A DNA stretch of 64,000 nucleotides from Rothia gullae. GTDB lineage: Bacteria > Actinomycetota > Actinomycetes > Actinomycetales > Micrococcaceae. A program made the translations under genes and the position numbers. The first letter of the stretch is position 1. Each line of letters opens with the position of its first letter. The DNA lies in assembly GCF_024294905.1 (NCBI RefSeq), contig NZ_JANCOC010000002.1, positions 142,277-206,276 on the forward strand, given 5' to 3'. The notes beneath the pieces are model-generated. The model saw only the letters and a program-made list of their open reading frames with translations, was not told the origin of the DNA and did no database searches. This document shows, piece by piece, positions 15,174-24,917 of the stretch.

Positions 15174-16229
15174 TTGTTGAATGCACCCGCCGATAAGGTC
15201 GGCACGAACTCTGACATTCGCCACGCTAACGCAGCTCTGCTGTCTATTACCCATGAGCTGCCTCCGGAGGTCGTCACGAGCGACTACTTCGATGAGCAGC
15301 TGGCCCAAACCTATAAGCGTCTGCGCATGCCGAAGGGCCTGCTGGAGCGCCTTGCCGGCATTAGCACTCGCCGCGGCTGGGCTGAGGGCCAGACCTTCGA
15401 GGACGGCGTGGTTGCCGCAGCCGAGAAGGCTATCGAGCAGGCGGGTATTGACCGCTCCCAGATTGGCCTACTGATTAACGCTTCGGTGACTCGAGATAAC
15501 TTTGAGCCCGCCGTTTCGGTGGGTGTGCACGACCGCCTGGAACTACCGCGTCACGCCCTGAACTTCGATATTACGAACGCCTGCCTGGGCTTTGTGAACG
15601 CGATGACTGTCGCCTCCACCATGATTGATGCGGGCGCTATCGACTACGCCCTGATTGTCGCTGGCGAGGACCCCTCCCCGTGGCACCGTACCGCGGTGCG
15701 CATCCTGAACAACCCCGATTCGACCCGCGAGGATGTGCTGGCTCAGTTCGCGACCCTGACCCTCGGTTCGGGTGCGGCGGCGGCTGTGATTGGTCGCGCT
15801 GACCGCCATCCGGAGGGTCACCGCATCGTCGGTTCTGTGTCCCGCGCGGGCACTGAGCACCGTAACCTATGCATCGGTGGCGAGGCTGATCAGGGCATGA
15901 ACACTGACGCCGAGGGCCTGCTTAAGCACGGTCTGGAGCTGGTAGCACAGGCGTGGGAGCAGGCGCATCAGGATGGCTGGGAGTGGAACAATATGACCTC
16001 CTACGTGACCCATCAGATTTCTAACGCCCACACAAACGCCATTATTGAGGCGGTCGGTATTGAGCGTAAGCGTATCCCTATGACTTTCCCGAAGTGGGGC
16101 AATGTGGCTGCGGCGGCTCTGCCGATGACTCTCGCCGAGTGCGCGCCGACCTACACGGAAGGCGACCGTATTCTGTGCATGGGTGTGGGTTCTGGCCTGA
16201 ACACTGCCCTGCTTGAGATTCAGTGGTAA
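15174..16229 (+). CDS. oleA: OleA-type thiolase, head-to-head acyl-CoA condensing enzyme
   Basis: A thiolase-fold enzyme that joins two fatty acyl-CoAs by a non-decarboxylative Claisen condensation to a 2-alkyl-3-ketoacyl intermediate, the first step of bacterial long-chain olefin synthesis. The 351-residue product has the nucleophile Cys137 in FDITNACLGF. A second conserved acidic residue, Glu111, is in NFEPAVSV. The His is in THQISNAHT (His280) and the Asn in KWGNVAAAALP (Asn310). It resembles FabH, but the adjacent oleBC and oleD make OleA the better call. The start is TTG at 15174, with AAGGG eight bases upstream; a second TTG follows directly. It leads an apparent operon, with 57 bases to oleBC. 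Confidence 0.88.
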   Translation: MLNAPADKVGTNSDIRHANAALLSITHELPPEVVTSDYFDEQLAQTYKRLRMPKGLLERLAGISTRRGWAEGQTFEDGVVAAAEKAIEQAGIDRSQIGLLINASVTRDNFEPAVSVGVHDRLELPRHALNFDITNACLGFVNAMTVASTMIDAGAIDYALIVAGEDPSPWHRTAVRILNNPDSTREDVLAQFATLTLGSGAAAAVIGRADRHPEGHRIVGSVSRAGTEHRNLCIGGEADQGMNTDAEGLLKHGLELVAQAWEQAHQDGWEWNNMTSYVTHQISNAHTNAIIEAVGIERKRIPMTFPKWGNVAAAALPMTLAECAPTYTEGDRILCMGVGSGLNTALLEIQW

Positions 16230-16286
16230 CCCGTTAGCTTCTGCGGTAGACATTCACCGATTCGATCCGGAAGGATTCCCCCCAGC

Positions 16287-19200
16287 ATGCGCCATTTGAA
16301 CTTCCCTAAGGCTCAGCCCCCGTATAACCCGGAGGAATGGGCGGGCGTGAACCCGCGCTACTCCCACCTTCTGGAGGTGCCCACCTCCGCCCCCATTGAG
16401 CAGCGGGCGCAGCAGGCTGGCGCGCGCCGCTGGCACTACCTGGATAACCTTCCGGTGCTGGTCGAGCAGGGTTTGGAGCCAATCGGCACGATTCTGTGCG
16501 TACACGGTAACCCAACCTGGTCGTACCTGTGGCGTACCGTGCTGGATGCGGGCGTGAATGAGCGCGCCCCGTGGCGTGTGGTTGCAGTCGATCAGATTGA
16601 TATGGGTTATTCGGAGCGCACCCACCTGGATTTGGAGGGTGAGCGCCGCTCCCTGACCGACCGTATCGCTGACCTGGGTGATTTCACGAAAGAGCTCGGC
16701 CTGGATGAGACCGATAAGCCGCTCGTGACCCTCGCCCATGACTGGGGTGGGCTGGTGTCCTTTGGTTGGGCGCTGGAGCATCGTGAGATTCTTTCGGGCG
16801 TGATGCTGACGAACACCGCGGTCTACCATGACGGCATTGAGAATATCCCTGCCGCTCTGCGCCTGGCGTTGGGTGTACACGAGTGGGGTACTCACGATTC
16901 GACCGCGTTTATTGATGTGACCTTGGGTTTGGCTCAGAATGAGGGCCGCCTGCCCGCGCCGGGTTCTGCCGGTGCCGGGGCGATTGAAGGTGCCCTGCCG
17001 CAGCCGGTGGGTCAGCAGCCCAAACGCCTGTACCCGAGCCCTCTGAACGAGGCGATTTACCGTACGTACCGTGCGCCGTACGCTCATTCGGCGTGGCGTG
17101 AGGGTGTGCGTAATTTTGTGGGCGATATTCCGACCGGCACCGACATTCCTTCCTATACGCCGATGCAGCGTATTGCCGAGCAGATCCGTGACCTGGACGT
17201 GCCCGCGTTCTTCCAGTGGGGTACGAAGGACCCGGTGTTCCAGCGCCGCTACCTGTTTGACCTGATGGAGCGCATGCCGCAGGCGAAGGTGCACCGCTAC
17301 GAGAAGGCCTCGCACCTGGTCATTGAGGATTACGATATTGCCTCCCCCATGATTTCGTGGCTTGCGCAGACTTTCGGCACAAGGGAGGATGGCGCGCTGG
17401 TGCCCCCGCACAACGTTGAGGCGGAGCATCGTGCCGCCCGCGCGCGCCGCCACGGTCTGACTACCGGCGAGGGTACTGCCGCTGAGGGTACTGAAGGCGC
17501 TGAGGGCGCTGTTCCCGCGGCGTTCCGACCCATGCTCGCAGCCCTCACCGAACGCGCCAACGACGCCTCCACCGCCGTGGTGGACATGGACCCCAAGGGT
17601 GACGGCACCTCCGTGGCTGTGACCCTGACCTGGGCTGAGCTGAACCAGCACGTCAACGCCGCAGCGACCCGCCTGCACGCCCTGGGTGTGCGTCCGGGCG
17701 ACCGCGTGAACCTGATGGTGCCTCCGGGTGCCCGTCTGACCACCTTGATTTACGCCTGCATGAAGCTGGGCGCTGTCATTGTGGTGGCTGATACCGGTCT
17801 GGGTATTCCGGGTCTGACTCGCGCGTTGAAGGGCGCTAACCCGAGCTTCCTGGTGGGTATTCCCGCCGCGCTCAGTGCCGCCCGTACCCTGCTGTGGCCG
17901 GGTGTGCGTATTTCTGTGGAGCCGCTGGGTTCGGTGCAGGAGAAGCTGTTGGGCGTTGCCGGTTCGGTGTTTACCGCGCCCGCCGCTGAGGGTACTCCGG
18001 GTGCGCCGGTGCCCACCCCGACCGTGGTGGAGTTCCCCTCCCCTGTACCGGATGCTGATGCGGCGGTGCTGTACACCTCCGGTTCGACCGGCCCGGCTAA
18101 GGGTGTGGTATACACGCAGCGTCAGCTGGCGGGTATGCGTGATGCCATTGCGAATACGTACGGTTTTGCGCCCGGTAGCGGCCTGGTGGCTGGCTTCGCG
18201 CCGTTTGCGCGGTTGGGCCCGGCGCTGGGTGCTACCAGCGTGACCCCGACGATGGATGTGACCCGCCCGAAGACTCTGACGGCTTCGGCTCTGGCATCGG
18301 CTGCGGCGGCTATTGATGCGTCGGTCGTGTTTGCGTCCCCCGCCGCCCTGGTGAATGTGGTGGCGACCGCCGATGAGCTGAACGCTGAGCAGCGTGCGGC
18401 GTTGGCTAAGGTTCAGACCGTGCTGAGTGCTGGCGCGCCGATTCCCGTGCCGCTGCTGGAGGCGCTCTCCGCCCTGGTGCCGAATGCCTCCCTGCACACC
18501 CCGTACGGCATGACCGAGGGTCTGCCGGTGACCGATGTGTCTTTCGAGATGATTCGCCAGGCGATTGCTGAGGGTACCCCGAATGCTGCCGGTGAGGTGC
18601 TTGACCCGTTCGCCCGTGACGGCGTGTGCGTTGGTTTTGCGGTGTACGGTGCGGCGGTGGCTATTGCGCCGCTGCTGCAGGACGGTTCGGTGGCGGATGA
18701 ACTGACCCATGAGCCGGGTGTGACCGGTGAGATTCTGGTGTCGGCACCGCATGTGAAGGACCGCTACGACACCCTGTGGGTGACTGAGGAGCAGTCCATT
18801 AGCACTCCGGGTTGGCATCATACCGGTGACGTCGGACACCTGGACGCTTCGGGTCGCCTGTGGATTGAGGGTCGCCTCGCGCACGTGCTGCTGACTTCGC
18901 AGGGCGTGCTGACCCCGGTTGCGGCTGAGCAGTCCGCCGAGTCCCTACCCGAGGTTCGCCGTGCCGCCCTGGTCGCTGTGGGTCCTGCCGGTACTGCGGC
19001 ACCGGTACTGGTCATTGAGGCTTCCGCGAATACTGCCGCGTTGGAGGCGCGCCAGTCGGCATCGGGTCTCAAGCGTGCCCTGCTCGATCGTGTGCCGGGT
19101 GCTCGCCGCTTCCCCATTGCGGAGGGTGTGGCACCCTTCGAGCTGTCGCAGCTGGTGCGTCAGAAGGTTGCCGAGGATACCGGCGTGGAACTTGCCGCGG

Positions 19201-19301
19201 TGCTGGTGGTGCACGAGCATCCGACCGATATTCGCCATAATTCGAAGATTGACCGCCCCGCCCTGGGTGAGTGGGCGTCGAAGGTCCTGGCGGGGGCGTA
19301 A
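16287..19301 (+). CDS. oleBC: OleBC fusion: beta-lactone decarboxylase plus beta-lactone synthetase
   Basis: A two-domain 1004-residue protein. Residues ~1-380 form an alpha/beta-hydrolase of the haloalkane-dehalogenase type (OleB). It has HGNPTW (73-78, oxyanion hole) and the nucleophile Asp152 in AHDWGG. It should decarboxylate a cis-beta-lactone to the alkene. A linker rich in Ala/Glu/Gly (~385-415) leads to an ANL-superfamily AMP-forming domain (OleC). That domain has the P-loop TSGSTGPAKG (~596-605), YGMTEG and a C-terminal SKIDRPALGEW lysine region. It should close the beta-hydroxy acid to the beta-lactone using ATP. OleB-OleC fusions are known from actinobacteria such as Micrococcus luteus. 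The start ATG has GGAAGGA about 11 bases upstream. The gene is translated between oleA and oleD. Confidence 0.9.
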   Translation: MRHLNFPKAQPPYNPEEWAGVNPRYSHLLEVPTSAPIEQRAQQAGARRWHYLDNLPVLVEQGLEPIGTILCVHGNPTWSYLWRTVLDAGVNERAPWRVVAVDQIDMGYSERTHLDLEGERRSLTDRIADLGDFTKELGLDETDKPLVTLAHDWGGLVSFGWALEHREILSGVMLTNTAVYHDGIENIPAALRLALGVHEWGTHDSTAFIDVTLGLAQNEGRLPAPGSAGAGAIEGALPQPVGQQPKRLYPSPLNEAIYRTYRAPYAHSAWREGVRNFVGDIPTGTDIPSYTPMQRIAEQIRDLDVPAFFQWGTKDPVFQRRYLFDLMERMPQAKVHRYEKASHLVIEDYDIASPMISWLAQTFGTREDGALVPPHNVEAEHRAARARRHGLTTGEGTAAEGTEGAEGAVPAAFRPMLAALTERANDASTAVVDMDPKGDGTSVAVTLTWAELNQHVNAAATRLHALGVRPGDRVNLMVPPGARLTTLIYACMKLGAVIVVADTGLGIPGLTRALKGANPSFLVGIPAALSAARTLLWPGVRISVEPLGSVQEKLLGVAGSVFTAPAAEGTPGAPVPTPTVVEFPSPVPDADAAVLYTSGSTGPAKGVVYTQRQLAGMRDAIANTYGFAPGSGLVAGFAPFARLGPALGATSVTPTMDVTRPKTLTASALASAAAAIDASVVFASPAALVNVVATADELNAEQRAALAKVQTVLSAGAPIPVPLLEALSALVPNASLHTPYGMTEGLPVTDVSFEMIRQAIAEGTPNAAGEVLDPFARDGVCVGFAVYGAAVAIAPLLQDGSVADELTHEPGVTGEILVSAPHVKDRYDTLWVTEEQSISTPGWHHTGDVGHLDASGRLWIEGRLAHVLLTSQGVLTPVAAEQSAESLPEVRRAALVAVGPAGTAAPVLVIEASANTAALEARQSASGLKRALLDRVPGARRFPIAEGVAPFELSQLVRQKVAEDTGVELAAVLVVHEHPTDIRHNSKIDRPALGEWASKVLAGA

Positions 19302-19331
19302 GCACCTGCCGGATCCCTGAGTCTAAGGAGT

Positions 19332-20591
19332 ATGATGTCCCCTCATTCTTCGCGTGAGTCCTCTTCCCACGAGCCCGCACCCCGCTTGTCTGCGTCCCGC
19401 TTGTCTGGACACCGCCTGTCGACTGCGCATGCGGTGGCCTCCCCGACGGCGCGGTTCCGCAAGCCTGCGCAGCCGCTGGCGGCACGCTACACCGACCCCG
19501 CCCCGCGTTCGCTACGCCCGGTTGAGGAGCCTGATTTTGCGCCGCGTATTGGCGAGCGCATCCTCTTTACCGGTGCGAGCGGTCTGCTGGGTCGTGAGAG
19601 CGTTCTGGCGTTGTTGCGTGCCGGCTATGATGTGCGCGTTTTTCAGCGTGGCGATTCGGGTATTGCGGCGCTTCTGCCCGATTCGATTCGCCCGCGTTTT
19701 GAGCAGGTGCGCGGCGATATTACGAACGCGCAGGCTGTGGATCTGGCGATGACCGGTGTGACCGGCGTGGTGCATGCCGCGGCGAAGGTTTCGGTCAGTG
19801 GGGAGTGGGCTGATTATGAGCGCATCAACGTTGAGGGCACCCGCACCCTGTTGCAGGCGGCGCTGAACCATTCGGTGGGTTCGTTCCTGTACATTTCGTC
19901 GCCGTCGGTGGCTCATGCCGGTGCGGCGATTGTGGGTGACGGTGCCGGCGTGGCGTCCCCGGAACATGCGCGCGGTAACTATGCGCGTTCGAAGGCTGCC
20001 GCTGAGCTGCTGGCGCTGGAGGCTAACGGCACTGCCCTGCCCGGTGGCGGGGTTTTGCGTGTGGGTGCGTTGCGTCCTCACCTGATGTGGGGTCCGGGCG
20101 ATACCCAGCTGGTGGAGCGTATTCTGGAGCGTTCCGCCGCGGGCCGCCTTCCGCTGCTCTCCGGCGGTACGGGTCTGATTGACACGCTCTACATTGATAA
20201 CGCCGCGGACGCCGTGGTGCGCGGCTATCAGCGTCTCGACGCTTTTGCGGGCCGGGCGCTGGTGGTGACGAACGGTCAGCCGCGCACTATCGCTGAGCTG
20301 CTGGGCGGTTTCTGTGAGGCGGTGGGCGTTCCCGCCCCGAGTTTCTCGGTTCCGGCGAAGGTTGCGGCCCTGGTGGGTAAGGTCATTGAGCGCGTCTGGG
20401 AGCGTCTGCCGAAGAACGTGACTGCCGGTGATGAGCCACCGATGACGGAGTTCCTTGCCGAGCAGCTGTCGACCGCGCACTGGTTTGATCAGCGCCGCAC
20501 CCGTGAGCTTCTGCAGTGGGAGCCCGCTGTGTCGATTGAGGAAGGCTACGAGCGTCTGGGCTTGTTCTACGGGGACAGGTACAGCCGCTAG
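19332..20591 (+). CDS. oleD: OleD-type NAD(P)-dependent 2-alkyl-3-ketoacid reductase
   Basis: An extended short-chain dehydrogenase that reduces the OleA product to the 2-alkyl-3-hydroxy acid used by OleC. The Rossmann motif GASGLLG is near residue 80. A VTGVVHAAA segment follows, and the catalytic YxxxK is in NYARSKAAAE. LYIDNAADAV is typical of the 3-beta-HSD/epimerase-like group that includes OleD. The 419-residue product is long for the family because about 70 Ser/Ala/Arg/Pro-rich residues precede the fold. The true start may be further downstream: AAGGAG sits only one base before the first ATG and four before the second. It lies 30 bases after oleBC and is the last gene of the operon. 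Confidence 0.87.
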   Translation: MMSPHSSRESSSHEPAPRLSASRLSGHRLSTAHAVASPTARFRKPAQPLAARYTDPAPRSLRPVEEPDFAPRIGERILFTGASGLLGRESVLALLRAGYDVRVFQRGDSGIAALLPDSIRPRFEQVRGDITNAQAVDLAMTGVTGVVHAAAKVSVSGEWADYERINVEGTRTLLQAALNHSVGSFLYISSPSVAHAGAAIVGDGAGVASPEHARGNYARSKAAAELLALEANGTALPGGGVLRVGALRPHLMWGPGDTQLVERILERSAAGRLPLLSGGTGLIDTLYIDNAADAVVRGYQRLDAFAGRALVVTNGQPRTIAELLGGFCEAVGVPAPSFSVPAKVAALVGKVIERVWERLPKNVTAGDEPPMTEFLAEQLSTAHWFDQRRTRELLQWEPAVSIEEGYERLGLFYGDRYSR

Positions 20592-20626
20592 GTGCAGGCG
20601 ATAGGTACAGTCGCGGCTAGCATTGG

Positions 20627-21196
20627 TTAACTCGGGTAGTTTTCTTTACTACCTTCTTCAAGCCTCCGAAGTAGATCCAACACCGCCTCGGTGCTTATCA
20701 CCATGAGTTTCTGGTACCCGTTTCCATCACTTACCGTGCTGAATCCGTAGCGCTCCTCGTAGTACTTTTCGAGTTCCTCGTTCCGCACGTGTAAGCAAAG
20801 GAAGCGGCTTCCAGAGATAGCAACCACATCACGATATTTACGGAAGACCTCCAGCATGAGCAATTCCCCCATGCCTTTACCTTGACCCTCAGTACGTAGG
20901 GCGAATTTTCCTAAAAGGTGTGCGGGATGGGTCTGGCTCGGCTCAATGCCAGAGCGCAGACGCCTCGTGAGAGACTCGCCCGTAATCTGGTAACCGCTCA
21001 ACGTAAAGTACCCAATCACATTCCCCGGATCATCTGCGTCCCCCATAATCCATACGACGCTCCGGTGGAGTTTCTGATACTCCCGAGCTTTGGTTTGCAA
21101 CCATTCGCCTAATTCGGCGCCTTCTCCCGAACTCGTGGTAGTCTCAAAAAATTCCAGGTAGTGCTCTTCATCGAGCTTTCTAACAGAGTAGTTCAC
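20627..21196 (-). CDS. GNAT-fold toxin candidate (TacT-like) of a Panacea toxin-antitoxin pair
   Basis: A 189-residue GCN5-related acetyltransferase. The acetyl-CoA pyrophosphate loop is at Gln105-Gly110 (QGKGMG) in the context LLGKFALRTEGQGKGMG. This strongly resembles the LGRLAVDxxxQGxGLG of TacT/AtaT-type tRNA-acetylating toxins. Upstream is IGYFTLSG, matching the toxin family's GYYTLS strand. The C-terminal KYYEERYGF supplies the tyrosine (Tyr145/146) expected for catalysis. Such toxins acetylate the amino group of charged tRNA and stop translation; applying this here is inference. The GTG start lies 12 bases after the antitoxin stop, with only a weak ribosome-binding site, which suggests coupled translation. 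Usual GNAT toxins pair with RHH/DUF1778 antitoxins; here the partner is a Panacea protein. An ordinary acetyltransferase cannot be excluded. Confidence 0.72.
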   Translation of the reverse strand: MNYSVRKLDEEHYLEFFETTTSSGEGAELGEWLQTKAREYQKLHRSVVWIMGDADDPGNVIGYFTLSGYQITGESLTRRLRSGIEPSQTHPAHLLGKFALRTEGQGKGMGELLMLEVFRKYRDVVAISGSRFLCLHVRNEELEKYYEERYGFSTVSDGNGYQKLMVISTEAVLDLLRRLEEGSKENYPS

Positions 21197-21208
21197 GGCT
21201 CTCGTCCG

Positions 21209-21805
21209 TTAGTTAGCTCGCGCCATGAGACGCTCAAGGAAGGGGGCGTGAGCGACGACAGGAACAGCTTCTAGATGTGCCCATTCACTCTCGGTAAGAC
21301 GTTCAACGAGGGGATCAGGTAGCTGGGCACGCAGAGCTTCAGGAATATCGCGTTTCAATGCAAAGTAATCAATAATATCCGTTGCTTCCAGAGGAGCACG
21401 TCGGGAGCCCTCACGTCGGGAATCCCAAGCGTCCCGCCAAACCTGCTCCTCATGGGTCATATCGACCAGTTGCCAACGCGAAAATTTACCGTAGTACCCC
21501 CAGACGGCCTCAATAATCTGGATGTAGTAGGGATCTTCAGGCTGAGGCTCGTCCTCCAAAAGTTCCCGACCCAGCTCTAAGACATCGCGGTCAACATCGA
21601 GCCGACGAGCGTGAGCGGTCAGCAGCTCACCCACCACGGGCCCCTTAGGCATTGCGTAGAAAGACTGCTCGAAAAGCCGCGAACCGGTCAGGTGAGCGTA
21701 CCACCCGTAGGTGTAGAAGACCAGCTTCTGCAGGGTGAGCGTCGGCAGGCTCTCCTGGCCGGAGACCTTTAGGATGTCGAGTGAGACATCAAAAACAGAG
21801 CGCAT
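21209..21805 (-). CDS. Panacea (SocA/DUF4065) domain antitoxin candidate
   Basis: A 198-residue protein with the Panacea/SocA-like domain at its N-terminus. LTLQKLVFYTYGWYAHLTG and the following AMPKGPVVGEL match the family pattern of KLLYYAQGW then KYGPVV. Panacea domains are known antitoxins that neutralise many unrelated toxins by direct binding, so pairing with the adjacent GNAT protein is meaningful. The C-terminal ~80 residues are charged and specific to this protein, perhaps the toxin-recognition part. The ATG at 21805 is preferred over the GTG at 21814, because AAAGGA then has ten-base spacing. It is the first gene of the pair, as expected for an antitoxin, and a palindromic operator candidate lies upstream. 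Confidence 0.78.
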   Translation of the reverse strand: MRSVFDVSLDILKVSGQESLPTLTLQKLVFYTYGWYAHLTGSRLFEQSFYAMPKGPVVGELLTAHARRLDVDRDVLELGRELLEDEPQPEDPYYIQIIEAVWGYYGKFSRWQLVDMTHEEQVWRDAWDSRREGSRRAPLEATDIIDYFALKRDIPEALRAQLPDPLVERLTESEWAHLEAVPVVAHAPFLERLMARAN

Positions 21806-21892
21806 GGTTTTCACATCCTTTCGGTGCTGAAGTTCAAAAATATCAGATAATCTGGGCGGTATGCTCTGCCAGCCGTCCGTTTATATTCAGCG

Positions 21893-21916
21893 TACACCAA
21901 TTAATATTTTGGTGTA
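21893..21916. promoter_or_regulatory. Palindromic operator candidate of the toxin-antitoxin pair
   Basis: TACACCAA (21893-21900) and TTGGTGTA (21909-21916) form a perfect 8-bp inverted repeat around the AT-only spacer TTAATATT. It lies about 90 bases upstream of the antitoxin start, in the AT-rich gap to mutM, where autoregulatory binding would be expected. DNA binding by this Panacea protein is not shown. Confidence 0.5.
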
Positions 21917-21973
21917 TATGTACTCGTCATTTCCATGTCGTCCGTCTTAGAAAGGACTATCGGACGTGCGGGG

Positions 21974-23056
21974 TTAGCGAGAATGCGGCGCCCGCTGGCA
22001 ACGCGGGCAACGGTAGGACGAACGGTTCTGGAACGGCTCGCGCACCATCAGGGTTGTGCGGCCCGCCTCCGCGCAACGGTGGCAGGGCTCCCCGGCACGA
22101 CCGTAGGCGTTCAGCGAGCGCTCAAAGTAGCCCGACTCCCCGAGCACGTTCACATACAGGGCATCGAAGCTCGTGCCGCCCGCCGCCAGGGACTCGCGCA
22201 GCACCTGCGTGACCGCCTCCAGCAGTTCGCGGGTTTGGGCGGCGCTGAGGGTGCGTGCGGGCTTCGCGTAGTGTAGCCGCGCACGCCACAGCGCCTCGTC
22301 AGCGTAGATATTGCCCACGCCGGAAATCACCGACTGGTCCAGCAGCACCTTCTTAATGCCGCTGGAGGTGCGCAGGAACTTGCGACGCACCGCCGCGAGG
22401 TCGAAGAATTCGTCCAGCGGGTCGCGGGCAATGTGCTTGACCACCTCGGGTACCAGAAAGCGCTCGGGTACTTCACCTTGCGCCACCTCATCCGCCGCTG
22501 ATTTATTCGTTGCAACCGGTGCGGGTACGTCCGGTACCAGCGGGCTGAGGAACATACCGCCGAAGATGCGCTGATCCACGAAGAGCAACCGCTGCCCGGT
22601 TCTTGCCCGGTTGGTGCTCGCCGCACCACCGGTAGCTCCCGCAGCGTTGGTAGCTCCTGCCGATCCTAGTTCTAGCACCACGCGCAGGTGCCGCGGCTGC
22701 TCGTCAAAGGCCGCGCGAGCCTCCGAATCACTACCCGAATCACTACCCGAATCACTGCCCGAGTCGCTATTCGGCTCATCGCGCACGAGCAGCTGACCGC
22801 TCATACCCAGATGCACCACGAGCGCCTCGTCGGCAAGCCTGCCGTCCGCCTCGCTCAGGGTCAGCCACAGGTACTTGCCGCGGCGATAGGCGCCGCGCAG
22901 CGCCCTGCCAGTGAGTGCCGCCTCAAAGTGGGCGGGACCGGGCAGGTGCCTGCGTAGCGAACGGGCATCGACCACGCGCACCGCCCGCACGGGCCGACCC
23001 AACGAATGGTCGGCGATGCCCGCGCGAACGGTTTCCACCTCGGGCAGTTCGGGCAT
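21974..23056 (-). CDS. mutM: Formamidopyrimidine-DNA glycosylase
   Basis: A bifunctional DNA glycosylase/AP lyase that removes 8-oxoguanine and formamidopyrimidines. The start is fixed by the required N-terminal MPELPEVE: Pro2 is the nucleophile and Glu3 is catalytic. It has GGAGGG four bases before the ATG at 23056. Other family features are the conserved lysine in RRGKYLWL, VSGVGNIYADEALW, and a C-terminal zinc finger with C-x2-C ... C-x2-C (CHRC, CPRC). At 360 residues it exceeds the usual 270-300. The excess is an inserted low-complexity loop at about 100-170, including four SDSG units encoded by a 12-bp tandem repeat (about 22720-22770). It is adjacent to rnc, as in other actinobacteria. 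Confidence 0.95.
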   Translation of the reverse strand: MPELPEVETVRAGIADHSLGRPVRAVRVVDARSLRRHLPGPAHFEAALTGRALRGAYRRGKYLWLTLSEADGRLADEALVVHLGMSGQLLVRDEPNSDSGSDSGSDSGSDSEARAAFDEQPRHLRVVLELGSAGATNAAGATGGAASTNRARTGQRLLFVDQRIFGGMFLSPLVPDVPAPVATNKSAADEVAQGEVPERFLVPEVVKHIARDPLDEFFDLAAVRRKFLRTSSGIKKVLLDQSVISGVGNIYADEALWRARLHYAKPARTLSAAQTRELLEAVTQVLRESLAAGGTSFDALYVNVLGESGYFERSLNAYGRAGEPCHRCAEAGRTTLMVREPFQNRSSYRCPRCQRAPHSR

Positions 23057-23131: not shown

Positions 23132-23821
23132 CTAAACCAGAATGCGGTACGCCTGCTCAGCGGCAAGGCGCTCCGCCTCCTTCTTGCTCGGACCCACACC
23201 GGTGCCGGCCTGTTGGTTCGCCACAATAGCGACCGCAGTGTACACGCGCGCATGGTCGGGGCCCTCGCCGGTGACCTCGTAGCGCACATCTCCCCAACCG
23301 CGGGCAGTGGCAAGGTTCAGCAGCTCAGTCTTCCAGTCGCGTCCAGAGTTCAGGACCTTCTCATCGTCGAGCAGTGGCGCGATCAGGCGCAACACCAGGT
23401 CACGAGCCGCCTCGCGACCGCACTCCAGGTAGGTCAGGCCAAAAATCGCTTCCATGGTGTCGGCAAGAATCGAGTCCTTATCGGCGCCGCCGGTGTGAAT
23501 CTCGCCCTTACCGAGCAGGATGTACCTGCCCAGGTCCAGGTCGCGTGCCACCTTCGCCAACGCCACCGTAGACACCACCACGTGGTGCAGCTTTACGAGC
23601 TCACCCTCGGGCAGGTCGGGGTAGCGTCGGTACACTTCTTCAGCGATTGCCAGAGATAGCACCGAATCGCCCAGAAACTCCAGGCGCTCATTATGCTCCA
23701 CCCCGGGATTCTCGAAGGCGTAGGAGCGGTGGGTTAGGGATAGCAAAAACGTCTCGGCGTCGATATCGACCCCGAGACGTTTACGCAACTCCCTAGTATC
23801 AACACTAGGAAATTCAAACAT
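23132..23821 (-). CDS. rnc: Ribonuclease III
   Basis: A double-strand-specific endoribonuclease for rRNA and mRNA processing, 229 residues. The catalytic signature HNERLEFLGDSVL is at ~43-55, and the second metal-binding acidic cluster lies in DSILADTMEAIFG. The C-terminal ~70 residues are a dsRNA-binding domain (DWKTELLNLA ... GPSKKEAERLAAEQAY). It lies 16 bases after rpmF and before mutM, in the conserved yceD-rpmF-rnc-mutM order. Confidence 0.96.
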   Translation of the reverse strand: MFEFPSVDTRELRKRLGVDIDAETFLLSLTHRSYAFENPGVEHNERLEFLGDSVLSLAIAEEVYRRYPDLPEGELVKLHHVVVSTVALAKVARDLDLGRYILLGKGEIHTGGADKDSILADTMEAIFGLTYLECGREAARDLVLRLIAPLLDDEKVLNSGRDWKTELLNLATARGWGDVRYEVTGEGPDHARVYTAVAIVANQQAGTGVGPSKKEAERLAAEQAYRILV

Positions 23822-23837
23822 AAGGATTCACCGCTTC

Positions 23838-24041
23838 TTAGGCGTCTGCAACCTTACGGCCCTTGTACTCCAGGAACAGGGCGTTGCCTGCAGCGTCGGT
23901 TACAACCTTTGCCTGGTGGGGCAGGCTGTAGGTCACGCGACCGTTTTCAACGGTCTTAACCAGCTGGGGCACGGATGCCTTCCACTGGGAACGGCGTGCG
24001 CGGGTGTTAGCGCGGGACATCTTGCGCTTGGGAACAGCCAC
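23838..24041 (-). CDS. rpmF: 50S ribosomal protein bL32
   Basis: A 67-residue ribosomal protein of the large subunit. It has the typical start [20 protein letters not shown]. There is no CxxC zinc pair, so this is the zinc-independent (C-minus) form; such forms are common in actinobacteria, sometimes as Zur-regulated paralogues. It lies directly downstream of the DUF177 gene, the widely conserved yceD-rpmF pairing. Confidence 0.95.
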
Positions 24042-24071
24042 AGCTATCTCACAATCTCTAGTAACAACAAT

Positions 24072-24623
24072 TTAGTTTTCGGTATCTGCACCGAGCAGGC
24101 CCTGTAGGGCCGACCAGCGCGGATCCAACACCTCGTGATGATGCCCGGGGTCATCCTCCAGGCGCGCACCGCAATCGGCGCACAGACCCTGGCAGGTGTC
24201 CCTACAAACAGGCTGGAACGGCAGTTGAAGGATTACTGCGTCCCGCAGAGCCGGTTCAAGGTCGATGGAATCATCCTCAACGGCGTACTGCTCATCTACT
24301 TCGTCTTCGGGGCCGCCAGCCGGGGCCTTCTCAAAGACGAAAAGCTCTTGAATATTGGCCGACATCTCGTAATCAATCGGATCCAAGCAGAGGCTACACT
24401 CGCCGTGTACATCCACAACGACGGAGCCGGTAACTAGGATACCATCAACAACAGACTCCATACGAATATCGAGGTCAATATCCGAACCCTCTTCCACGCC
24501 GATGAGCGTGTTACCCAGGTCTGCCGGTGCGGGCAGAACCTCAGTGAGAGTTTCCATGGTGCCGGGGCGGTGAATCAGGTTAGTAACCGATACCACCAGA
24601 GGCAATGCGTCTGCACGTGAAAT
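24072..24623 (-). CDS. DUF177 / YceD family protein, probable ATT start
   Basis: A YceD-like protein of about 183 residues; the family is almost always next to rpmF and is linked to 23S rRNA/ribosome assembly. The conserved cores IHRPGTMETL ... PAPADLGN, the GECSLCLDPI pair, and the C-terminal VCRDTCQGLCADCGARL all fit. The homologous start would be close to SRADALPLVVSV. The only good ribosome-binding site (AAGGAG, seven-base spacing) points at an ATT codon at 24623. The nearest upstream ATG (about 15 codons earlier) has no such site. The start is therefore probably the rare ATT, unless a base call is wrong. Confidence 0.85.
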   Translation of the reverse strand: MSRADALPLVVSVTNLIHRPGTMETLTEVLPAPADLGNTLIGVEEGSDIDLDIRMESVVDGILVTGSVVVDVHGECSLCLDPIDYEMSANIQELFVFEKAPAGGPEDEVDEQYAVEDDSIDLEPALRDAVILQLPFQPVCRDTCQGLCADCGARLEDDPGHHHEVLDPRWSALQGLLGADTEN

Positions 24624-24917
24624 GGCGTTTCTCCTTACGAAATGTATAAACCAAAGTCCCATTCTAGGGGTCATTCGCATCGTTAATCAAGATTAAGCGC
24701 CTTTTAAATCTCTTTAAGTGGCGCTCACCTCTTAAATATCCCCTTAAGGAGGCGCCGCGCGGCATTTAATCGGTCGGTCGGGGCTACTACTGGGGGAGTT
24801 AAGTACCCGGTCGGCGGTGCGAGTTATTCTGCCGGGGCCCTGCCGGTGGGCGTACCTGGCGTGCCGGGCGTGCCGGGCGTGCCGGGTGGGTGCGCCCCGG
24901 GTGCGCGCCCGGGTCGG
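24624..24917. other. Gap between the DUF177 gene and coaD with short repeats
   Basis: No gene was seen. The left part (24690-24770) has repeated CTTAA/TTTAA motifs that can form two small stems (AGCGCC/GGCGCT, CCTCTTAA/TTAAGGAGG). The right part has a 9-bp tandem unit GCGTGCCGG in about three copies (~24857-24885). It should contain the promoter of the DUF177-rpmF-rnc group. Confidence 0.35.

Follow-up and report, generated by a model that had tools for sequence, protein, structure and literature searches.

A predicted Panacea–GNAT toxin–antitoxin pair in Rothia gullae

Introduction

GNAT acetyltransferases encoded beside DUF4065 genes were described in 2022 as a clade of their own ("clade C"), and one such pair has been validated: VcaT of Varibaculum cambriense inhibits growth, acetylating mainly Gly-tRNA, and its toxicity is relieved by VcaA (PMC9177977). 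Here we analyze a pair of the same gene content in a 64-kb stretch of Rothia gullae DNA (contig NZ_JANCOC010000002.1; "the window" throughout), where a minus-strand open reading frame (ORF) for a Panacea (DUF4065, SocA-like) protein, PanA, is followed after 12 bp by an ORF for a GNAT protein. The likeness to VcaA–VcaT, in both of which a Panacea/DUF4065 antitoxin gene adjoins a GNAT toxin gene, is one of gene content. Taking sequence, predicted fold, and conserved adjacency together, the Rothia pair is probably a bicistronic toxin–antitoxin module, a reading to which we give a probability of about 0.87 and which agrees with the hybrid toxin–antitoxin pair proposed in an earlier note on this DNA. 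The combination itself, which that note had put forward as a hybrid, was already on record. Because VcaA–VcaT had been validated, the Rothia pair is, by analogy, a further example of the known DUF4065–GNAT kind and not a new kind of system. Within a literature coverage that was incomplete, we found no paper whose title or abstract describes this pair in Rothia. A validated, little-studied combination can now be placed in a member of this genus.

Other described systems share one half of the pair. The TacAT, AtaRT, KacAT, and GmvAT modules resemble it in the toxin fold, the QGKGMG acetyl-CoA loop, the active-site tyrosine, and an antitoxin gene placed first; their antitoxin is a ribbon-helix-helix (RHH)/DUF1778 protein, whereas that of the window is a Panacea protein in which Pfam recognizes nothing else, and the pair is therefore not of the DUF1778-paired TacAT type. 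In PanAT modules, as here, a Panacea antitoxin gene lies directly upstream of a toxin gene, antitoxin-first being the commoner order reported for them (PMC8832971, PMC10440598). The main texts of these two papers do not name a GNAT as a PanAT partner ("acetyl," "GNAT," and "GCN5" occur in neither). The window PanA differs in having no evident N-terminal helix-turn-helix (HTH) or PAD1 domain and in carrying a C-terminal tail, although N-terminal HTH domains are described for only some PanAs (PMC8832971). Finally, the type VI system SocAB of Caulobacter has the same antitoxin domain, but the partner in the window is a GNAT, not SocB, and PanA falls far below the cut-off of the SocA equivalog model.

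Results and Discussion

A GNAT protein of the toxin type

The best sequence matches of the GNAT protein in the PDB belong to the GmvT (9ilr), KacT, TacT, and AtaT group; the search gave 16 rows at E ≤ 1; the final one (E=0.66) was not a GNAT. A profile of six sequences (A3) gave 15 rows, headed by 9ilr (GmvT–GmvA), 7f37 (AtaT2–AtaR2), and KacT. The AlphaFold2 model of the protein (predicted local distance difference test [pLDDT] 90.2) tells the same story: among the best 50 of 1306 Foldseek matches, rows 1–38 are all toxin entries, comprising AtaT, TacT, TacT2, TacT3, KacT, AtaT2, GmvT, and four rows of 7byy ("bacterial toxin"), with E values from 2.7e-13 to 8.2e-9 and identities of 13–24%, and the first non-toxin GNAT follows at E 9.6e-8. 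The motifs quoted in the earlier note, including KYYEERYGF, are present. Tyrosine 146, which a hand count on the profile alignment places opposite Y145 of KacT, is invariant in all 57 aligned sequences. We take Y145 of KacT and Y144 of AtaT to be catalytic; PDB entries for Y145F and Y144F are among the Foldseek names. The acetyl-CoA loop reads Q105-G-K-G-M-G110, presumably the usual Q/RxxGxG/A motif. By sequence and predicted fold, the protein is closest to the aminoacyl-tRNA-acetylating toxins AtaT, TacT, KacT, and GmvT, and by analogy with them it would acetylate charged tRNA and stop translation.

Partner genes in relatives

An order-level search found a GNAT match in 54 of 396 genomes. Directly upstream of the four strongest (E ≤ 1.5e-27; L002, L011, L012, and L013, from three families) there was a Panacea gene in every case, with E values of 1e-66 to 1e-88 and a spacing that ranged from a 4 bp overlap to an 11 bp gap. 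More distant GNATs usually have another partner. For 65 GNAT loci (L002–L036 and L069–L098), the neighbor was defined as the longest ORF on the same strand immediately upstream; one was present for 63, and after a duplicate place was dropped, 62 went to Pfam, which labeled 37 as TacA1/DUF1778 and 8 as Panacea. With the neighbor chosen by profile instead, the 65 loci divided into 46 TacA, 8 Panacea, and 11 with neither. The home-made TacA profile behind these neighbor labels was contaminated, 28 of its 101 rows being GNAT ORFs; the TacA labels carried into the trees below were all confirmed, 55 of 55 by a clean profile and 55 of 55 by Pfam TacA1. The statement in the earlier note that GNAT toxins normally pair with RHH/DUF1778 antitoxins thus holds for the wider relatives. 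Its concern that homologues of the two proteins might rarely occur together applies to that wider family, in which DUF1778 proteins are the normal partners, and not to the close relatives.

The pairing is frequent in the family of Arcanobacterium. GNAT matches were found in 55 of 213 genomes of this family, and the 30 loci examined were labeled Panacea (13), TacA (12), or neither (5); L209 and L210 repeat L011 and L012. One locus labeled neither, L220, has a Panacea ORF that overlaps the called GNAT start, so at least 14 of the 30 loci are Panacea-linked. Searching from the other side, with Panacea first, gave a match in 27 of 297 genomes of the order. Both loci with E below 1e-80 (again L012 and L011) have a GNAT downstream, as do 3 of the 28 other Panacea-first loci, and Fic appeared as an alternative partner in 3 of the 30 neighbor ORFs scanned, from a total of 53. 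Among viral Panacea loci, a GNAT adjoins 1 of the 80 kept (of 252 relatives), namely the best match, L129. Most members of the window's group were reached via their GNAT, and only L099/L100 (the same as L012/L011) and L129 were reached via Panacea alone as well. The Panacea–GNAT combination accordingly recurs across several actinobacterial families.

Descent of the pair

A GNAT tree of 77 sequences (22 Panacea-linked and 55 TacA-linked) places the window in a group of 15, all of them Panacea-linked, with support of 100/100; a second Panacea-linked set (group II) has 7 members. In the Panacea tree, the window's group (group I) is likewise one clade, at 100, and at 100/100 when L239 is added, and group II splits into two places. 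These groups were named after the trees had been inspected. Within group I, both trees recover the window together with its copy in genome G035, their near kin L011, L012, and L211, the set L212–L214, and the set L217/L218/L221/L226. They conflict on two loci. L219 groups with kin of the window by its GNAT but with L013 and L212–L214 by its Panacea protein; L239 is the window's sister by its GNAT (98/86), whereas in the Panacea tree its shortest path leads to L011. PanA and GNAT have thus likely descended as a unit, though not strictly.

Two separate origins of the Panacea–GNAT pairing, which the first GNAT tree had suggested, a single Panacea clade appearing in 0% of its 200 bootstrap trees, are retained only as a less likely reading. 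The approximately unbiased (AU) test does not reject a single Panacea-linked clade (p-AU 0.471), and with the long-branch rows L107, L129, L089, and L031 removed and L239 included, the Panacea-linked GNATs form one clade at 83/86. In the Panacea tree, the AU test rejects neither groups I and II together (p-AU 0.084) nor group II together (p-AU 0.143), in tests that omit the long-branch sequences L111, L122, L128, and L187 and two thirds of the viral rows.

Several genomes hold pairs beyond group I. Genome G954 carries two Panacea–GNAT pairs, one of each group (L239, 1923–3037, and L216, 913–2016). Within the genus of the window, L007 (812–1938, G024) and L008 (1486–2793, G018) are highly diverged second-group pairs, with GNAT identities of 20–22% to the window.

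The Panacea protein and its tail

The Panacea domain that the earlier note had recognized in the first gene is clear (PF13274, 55.3 bits vs a cut-off of 25.7, E=1.5e-14). It covers residues of about 25–123, with no N-terminal extension and with 75 residues beyond W123; at E up to 1, Pfam gives no other domain in the protein, and in particular no DNA-binding domain. The model (pLDDT 93.5) combines a mixed helix–strand core with C-terminal helices; a homologue, P0012, is 97% identical and also 198 residues long.

Published work on antitoxins of this family supports direct neutralization of the toxin, with either the Panacea core or additional domains doing the work; for one PanA, a pair of C-terminal helices is predicted to make contact with Doc, its toxin (PMC8832971, PMC10440598). 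We therefore measured tail length, defined as the residues following the conserved H118–W123 motif. The tail has 59–91 residues in all 22 GNAT-linked PanAs compared, a set that stands without L239 and L220 and in which 21 members keep both motif letters, L217 having Q for H. Panaceas without a GNAT neighbor, a set that omits L112 and near-identical viral copies and in which 67 of 71 keep the motif, have a median tail of 31 residues, and 4 of the 67 reach 60 or more. Rank tests on these lengths do not count as independent evidence because the rows are mutually related. An hhalign comparison detected no homology between the tails of different GNAT-linked groups, or to TacA, a test made weak by sets of only three (IIa) and two (IIb) sequences. 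The first 21 columns of the IIa tail match tails of other Panaceas (probability 78.5), and so part of the counted tail is common Panacea sequence.

By analogy with the relatives, then, a working scheme can be proposed. panA would be encoded first, in one transcription unit with the GNAT gene, although the shared transcript is our supposition. Free GNAT would acetylate the amino group of charged tRNA, probably Gly-tRNA as for VcaT, and translation would stop; PanA would bind GNAT and keep it off, and release or loss of PanA would lead to growth arrest. Both the toxicity of the GNAT and its rescue by direct PanA binding are expected from what the relatives do. Within this scheme, we propose that the C-terminal tail neutralizes the toxin and the globular Panacea core senses a trigger, a sensing role having been proposed for Panacea (PMC10440598). 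The long tail, shared by the GNAT-linked Panaceas and absent from most others sampled, offers a simple testable idea. If the tail alone neutralizes, it would become easier to understand why a single antitoxin domain can serve many unrelated toxins.

A bolder extension is that GNATs were taken over by Panacea antitoxins more than once: the Panacea cores of the window's group and of one or two others would be of separate descent, and each would have gained a new tail against the same toxin fold and kept the core as trigger sensor. We regard this as less likely than not. If it were true, both main types in G954 would need insulation from each other.

Weighing the alternatives

Several points weigh against a directly neutralized GNAT toxin. 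The GNAT domain PF00583 barely exceeds its cut-off (21.8 bits vs 20.7), and the acetyl-CoA loop is not strict among relatives (Q105 in 44, G108 in 43, and G110 in 43 of 57). In a class-level sample of 394 genomes, none of the 30 GNAT loci examined, which are part of the 65 above, was labeled Panacea-linked, and the pairing as sampled is thus confined to the order and one viral contig. The tail may be incidental, given that 4 of 67 other Panaceas are also long-tailed and that the tails of different groups have no detectable homology. Lastly, a SocA-like (type VI) mechanism is left open for VcaA–VcaT in the text of PMC9177977.

The first two of these points would also suit an ordinary protein or small-molecule acetyltransferase with the Panacea neighbor as its regulator and no toxin involved. 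GNATs are abundant in general, and the protein has a weak match to RimI besides. However, sequence and fold searches rank toxins above the non-toxin GNATs among the matches listed, and an antitoxin-type gene, TacA or Panacea, lies directly upstream in most relatives sampled; we consider this alternative highly improbable.

Another alternative is a type VI-like module, in which PanA, like SocA, would deliver its partner to ClpXP to be degraded and would not act by binding alone. In its favor, Panacea and SocA are names for one domain, and the SocA model NF047745 does match PanA (E=1.4e-9). That match, however, scores 37.9 bits against an equivalog cut-off of 190, VcaT levels were comparable with and without VcaA (PMC9177977), and the results in PMC8832971, as presented there, are most consistent with direct, type II neutralization. 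Degradation thus seems to us an improbable route, and direct neutralization by PanA remains the preferred reading of the pair.

Gene structure and upstream inverted repeat

The two minus-strand genes described in the earlier note are both present (Table 1), the first as an ORF that can be extended to a GTG at 21814 (21209–21814, 201 aa). The ATG is likely the better start, because by eye it is preceded by AAAGGA. The GNAT homologue of R. mucilaginosa (L001, genome G035) begins with ATG, vs GTG in the window. The pair is flanked by mutM (formamidopyrimidine-DNA glycosylase), which ends at 21974, and by a convergent oleD-like gene, which ends at 20591. A sigma-70-type promoter was looked for at the locus and not found.

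Table 1. Features of the Panacea–GNAT locus, in window positions
Feature	Coordinates	Strand	Details
panA-like gene, Panacea/DUF4065/SocA-like	21209..21805	-	198 aa, ATG at 21805
GNAT acetyltransferase gene, TacT/AtaT/KacT-like, putative toxin	20627..21196	-	189 aa, GTG start
Perfect inverted repeat TACACCAA-8-TTGGTGTA	21893..21916	.	no mismatch; 87 bp from panA ATG
Accessory insertion, ends approximate	20601..21974	.	1374 bp by comparison with G022; 52.6% G+C

The perfect palindrome upstream of the pair is exactly as the earlier note gave it; its role as an operator, also suggested there, finds little support. The idea would be an autoregulated operon, with PanA, alone or with GNAT, binding the repeat. 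Besides the perfect 8-bp arms, its rarity speaks for it: the 7-bp core is found in 2 of 35 genus genomes, of which G035 has it at this locus and G002 once, within an ORF. However, when the 168-bp intergenic stretch was shuffled, 8-bp arms arose in 88 of 3000 shuffles with spacers of up to 20 and in 40 of 3000 with spacers of up to 10, and the window as a whole holds 113 such inverted repeats. In L001 the palindrome is present with one inner arm base changed, and it is absent upstream of all 17 distant Panacea–GNAT pairs, whose start codons were called mechanically. The absence of a DNA-binding domain in PanA by Pfam and the argument of PMC10440598 that Panacea itself is probably no transcriptional autoregulator point the same way. 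An operator here is unlikely.

Longer perfect inverted repeats were seen upstream of panA at L221, L226, and L239, with arms of 11, 13, and 10 bp at 113–135 bp from the called start. For each of them, none of 200 shuffles gave a repeat as long. They have no sequence in common with the window palindrome and may be terminators or operators.

Genomic setting and mobility

A close copy of the GNAT gene was found in 1 of 35 genomes of the genus (G035). Three more have distant GNATs, Panacea-linked in G024 (L007) and G018 (L008) and TacA-linked in G002 (L003). A mutM query matched in all 35, and an oleD relative lies in the same stretch at 21 of the 30 mutM loci examined, with the pair present only at the G035 locus. 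In place of the pair, G022, G001, and G020 have empty sites of 169, 204, and 177 bp, in which an inverted-repeat spacer can be made out by eye. The G+C content of the inserted segment is well below that of the flanking 2.5–2.6 kb (65.7% and 62.0%). The pair thus forms an accessory insertion of low G+C content, with mutM on one side and the oleD-like gene on the other.

Comparison with L001 gives synonymous divergence (dS) of 0.09 for panA and 0.17 for the GNAT gene, vs 0.37 for mutM, 0.51 for rnc, and 0.60 for oleD. Because the values for the pair lie below those of the other three genes, they fit an exchange of the module after the window and L001 strains parted. One nearby gene (24072–24635), however, also has a low dS (0.06). 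The ratios of nonsynonymous to synonymous divergence (dN/dS) against the L001 copy, 0.10 for panA and 0.19 for the GNAT gene, indicate purifying selection on both genes. Window positions 23600–24600, which overlap this low-dS gene, are 95–100% identical to L001 between stretches of about 85–86% identity, possibly a separate exchange tract or strongly conserved genes.

The protein clusters P0001 and P0012 have 335 and 320 members, sizes that suggest a frequent occurrence of the pair in sequenced samples. No close copy of either protein was found in named plasmid and phage collections; matches there are distant, all below 60% identity, and comprise 452 plasmid records and 1 phage record for the GNAT and 18 phage and 3 plasmid records for PanA. 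A scan of viral contigs with the GNAT profile found none, and it was the Panacea profile that brought up L129, where the pair lies between an integrase gene and genes for a metalloprotease, a repressor, and an antirepressor. The pair behaves as a cargo insertion, and a relative of it adjoins a prophage integrase. Positions 1292–6001 of L129 form a prophage-like region with an integrase, Panacea, GNAT, a metalloprotease, repressor-like HTH proteins, and an antirepressor.

A benefit of the pair in phage defense or stability would be conjecture on our part. As an alternative to a role in stress or stability, the module may serve in phage defense, by abortive infection, or in superinfection exclusion, a possibility to be taken seriously, at somewhat less than even odds. 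The position of the relative pair in L129, between integrase and lysogeny genes, favors it, and PMC10440598 relates toxin–antitoxin systems, including those with Panacea, to phage defense. However, the checked neighbors of the window pair are housekeeping or metabolic genes (smc, ole, mutM, rnc), with no phage gene recognized among them, and the PADLOC models match neither PanA nor the GNAT.

Beside the pair, on the plus strand (15174–20591), lies an olefin (hydrocarbon) biosynthesis-like set, which olefin-specific NCBIfam models match below their cut-offs. It consists of an OleA-like ketosynthase, a 1004-aa fusion of an alpha/beta hydrolase (OleB-like) with an AMP-binding enzyme (OleC-like), and an OleD-like reductase.
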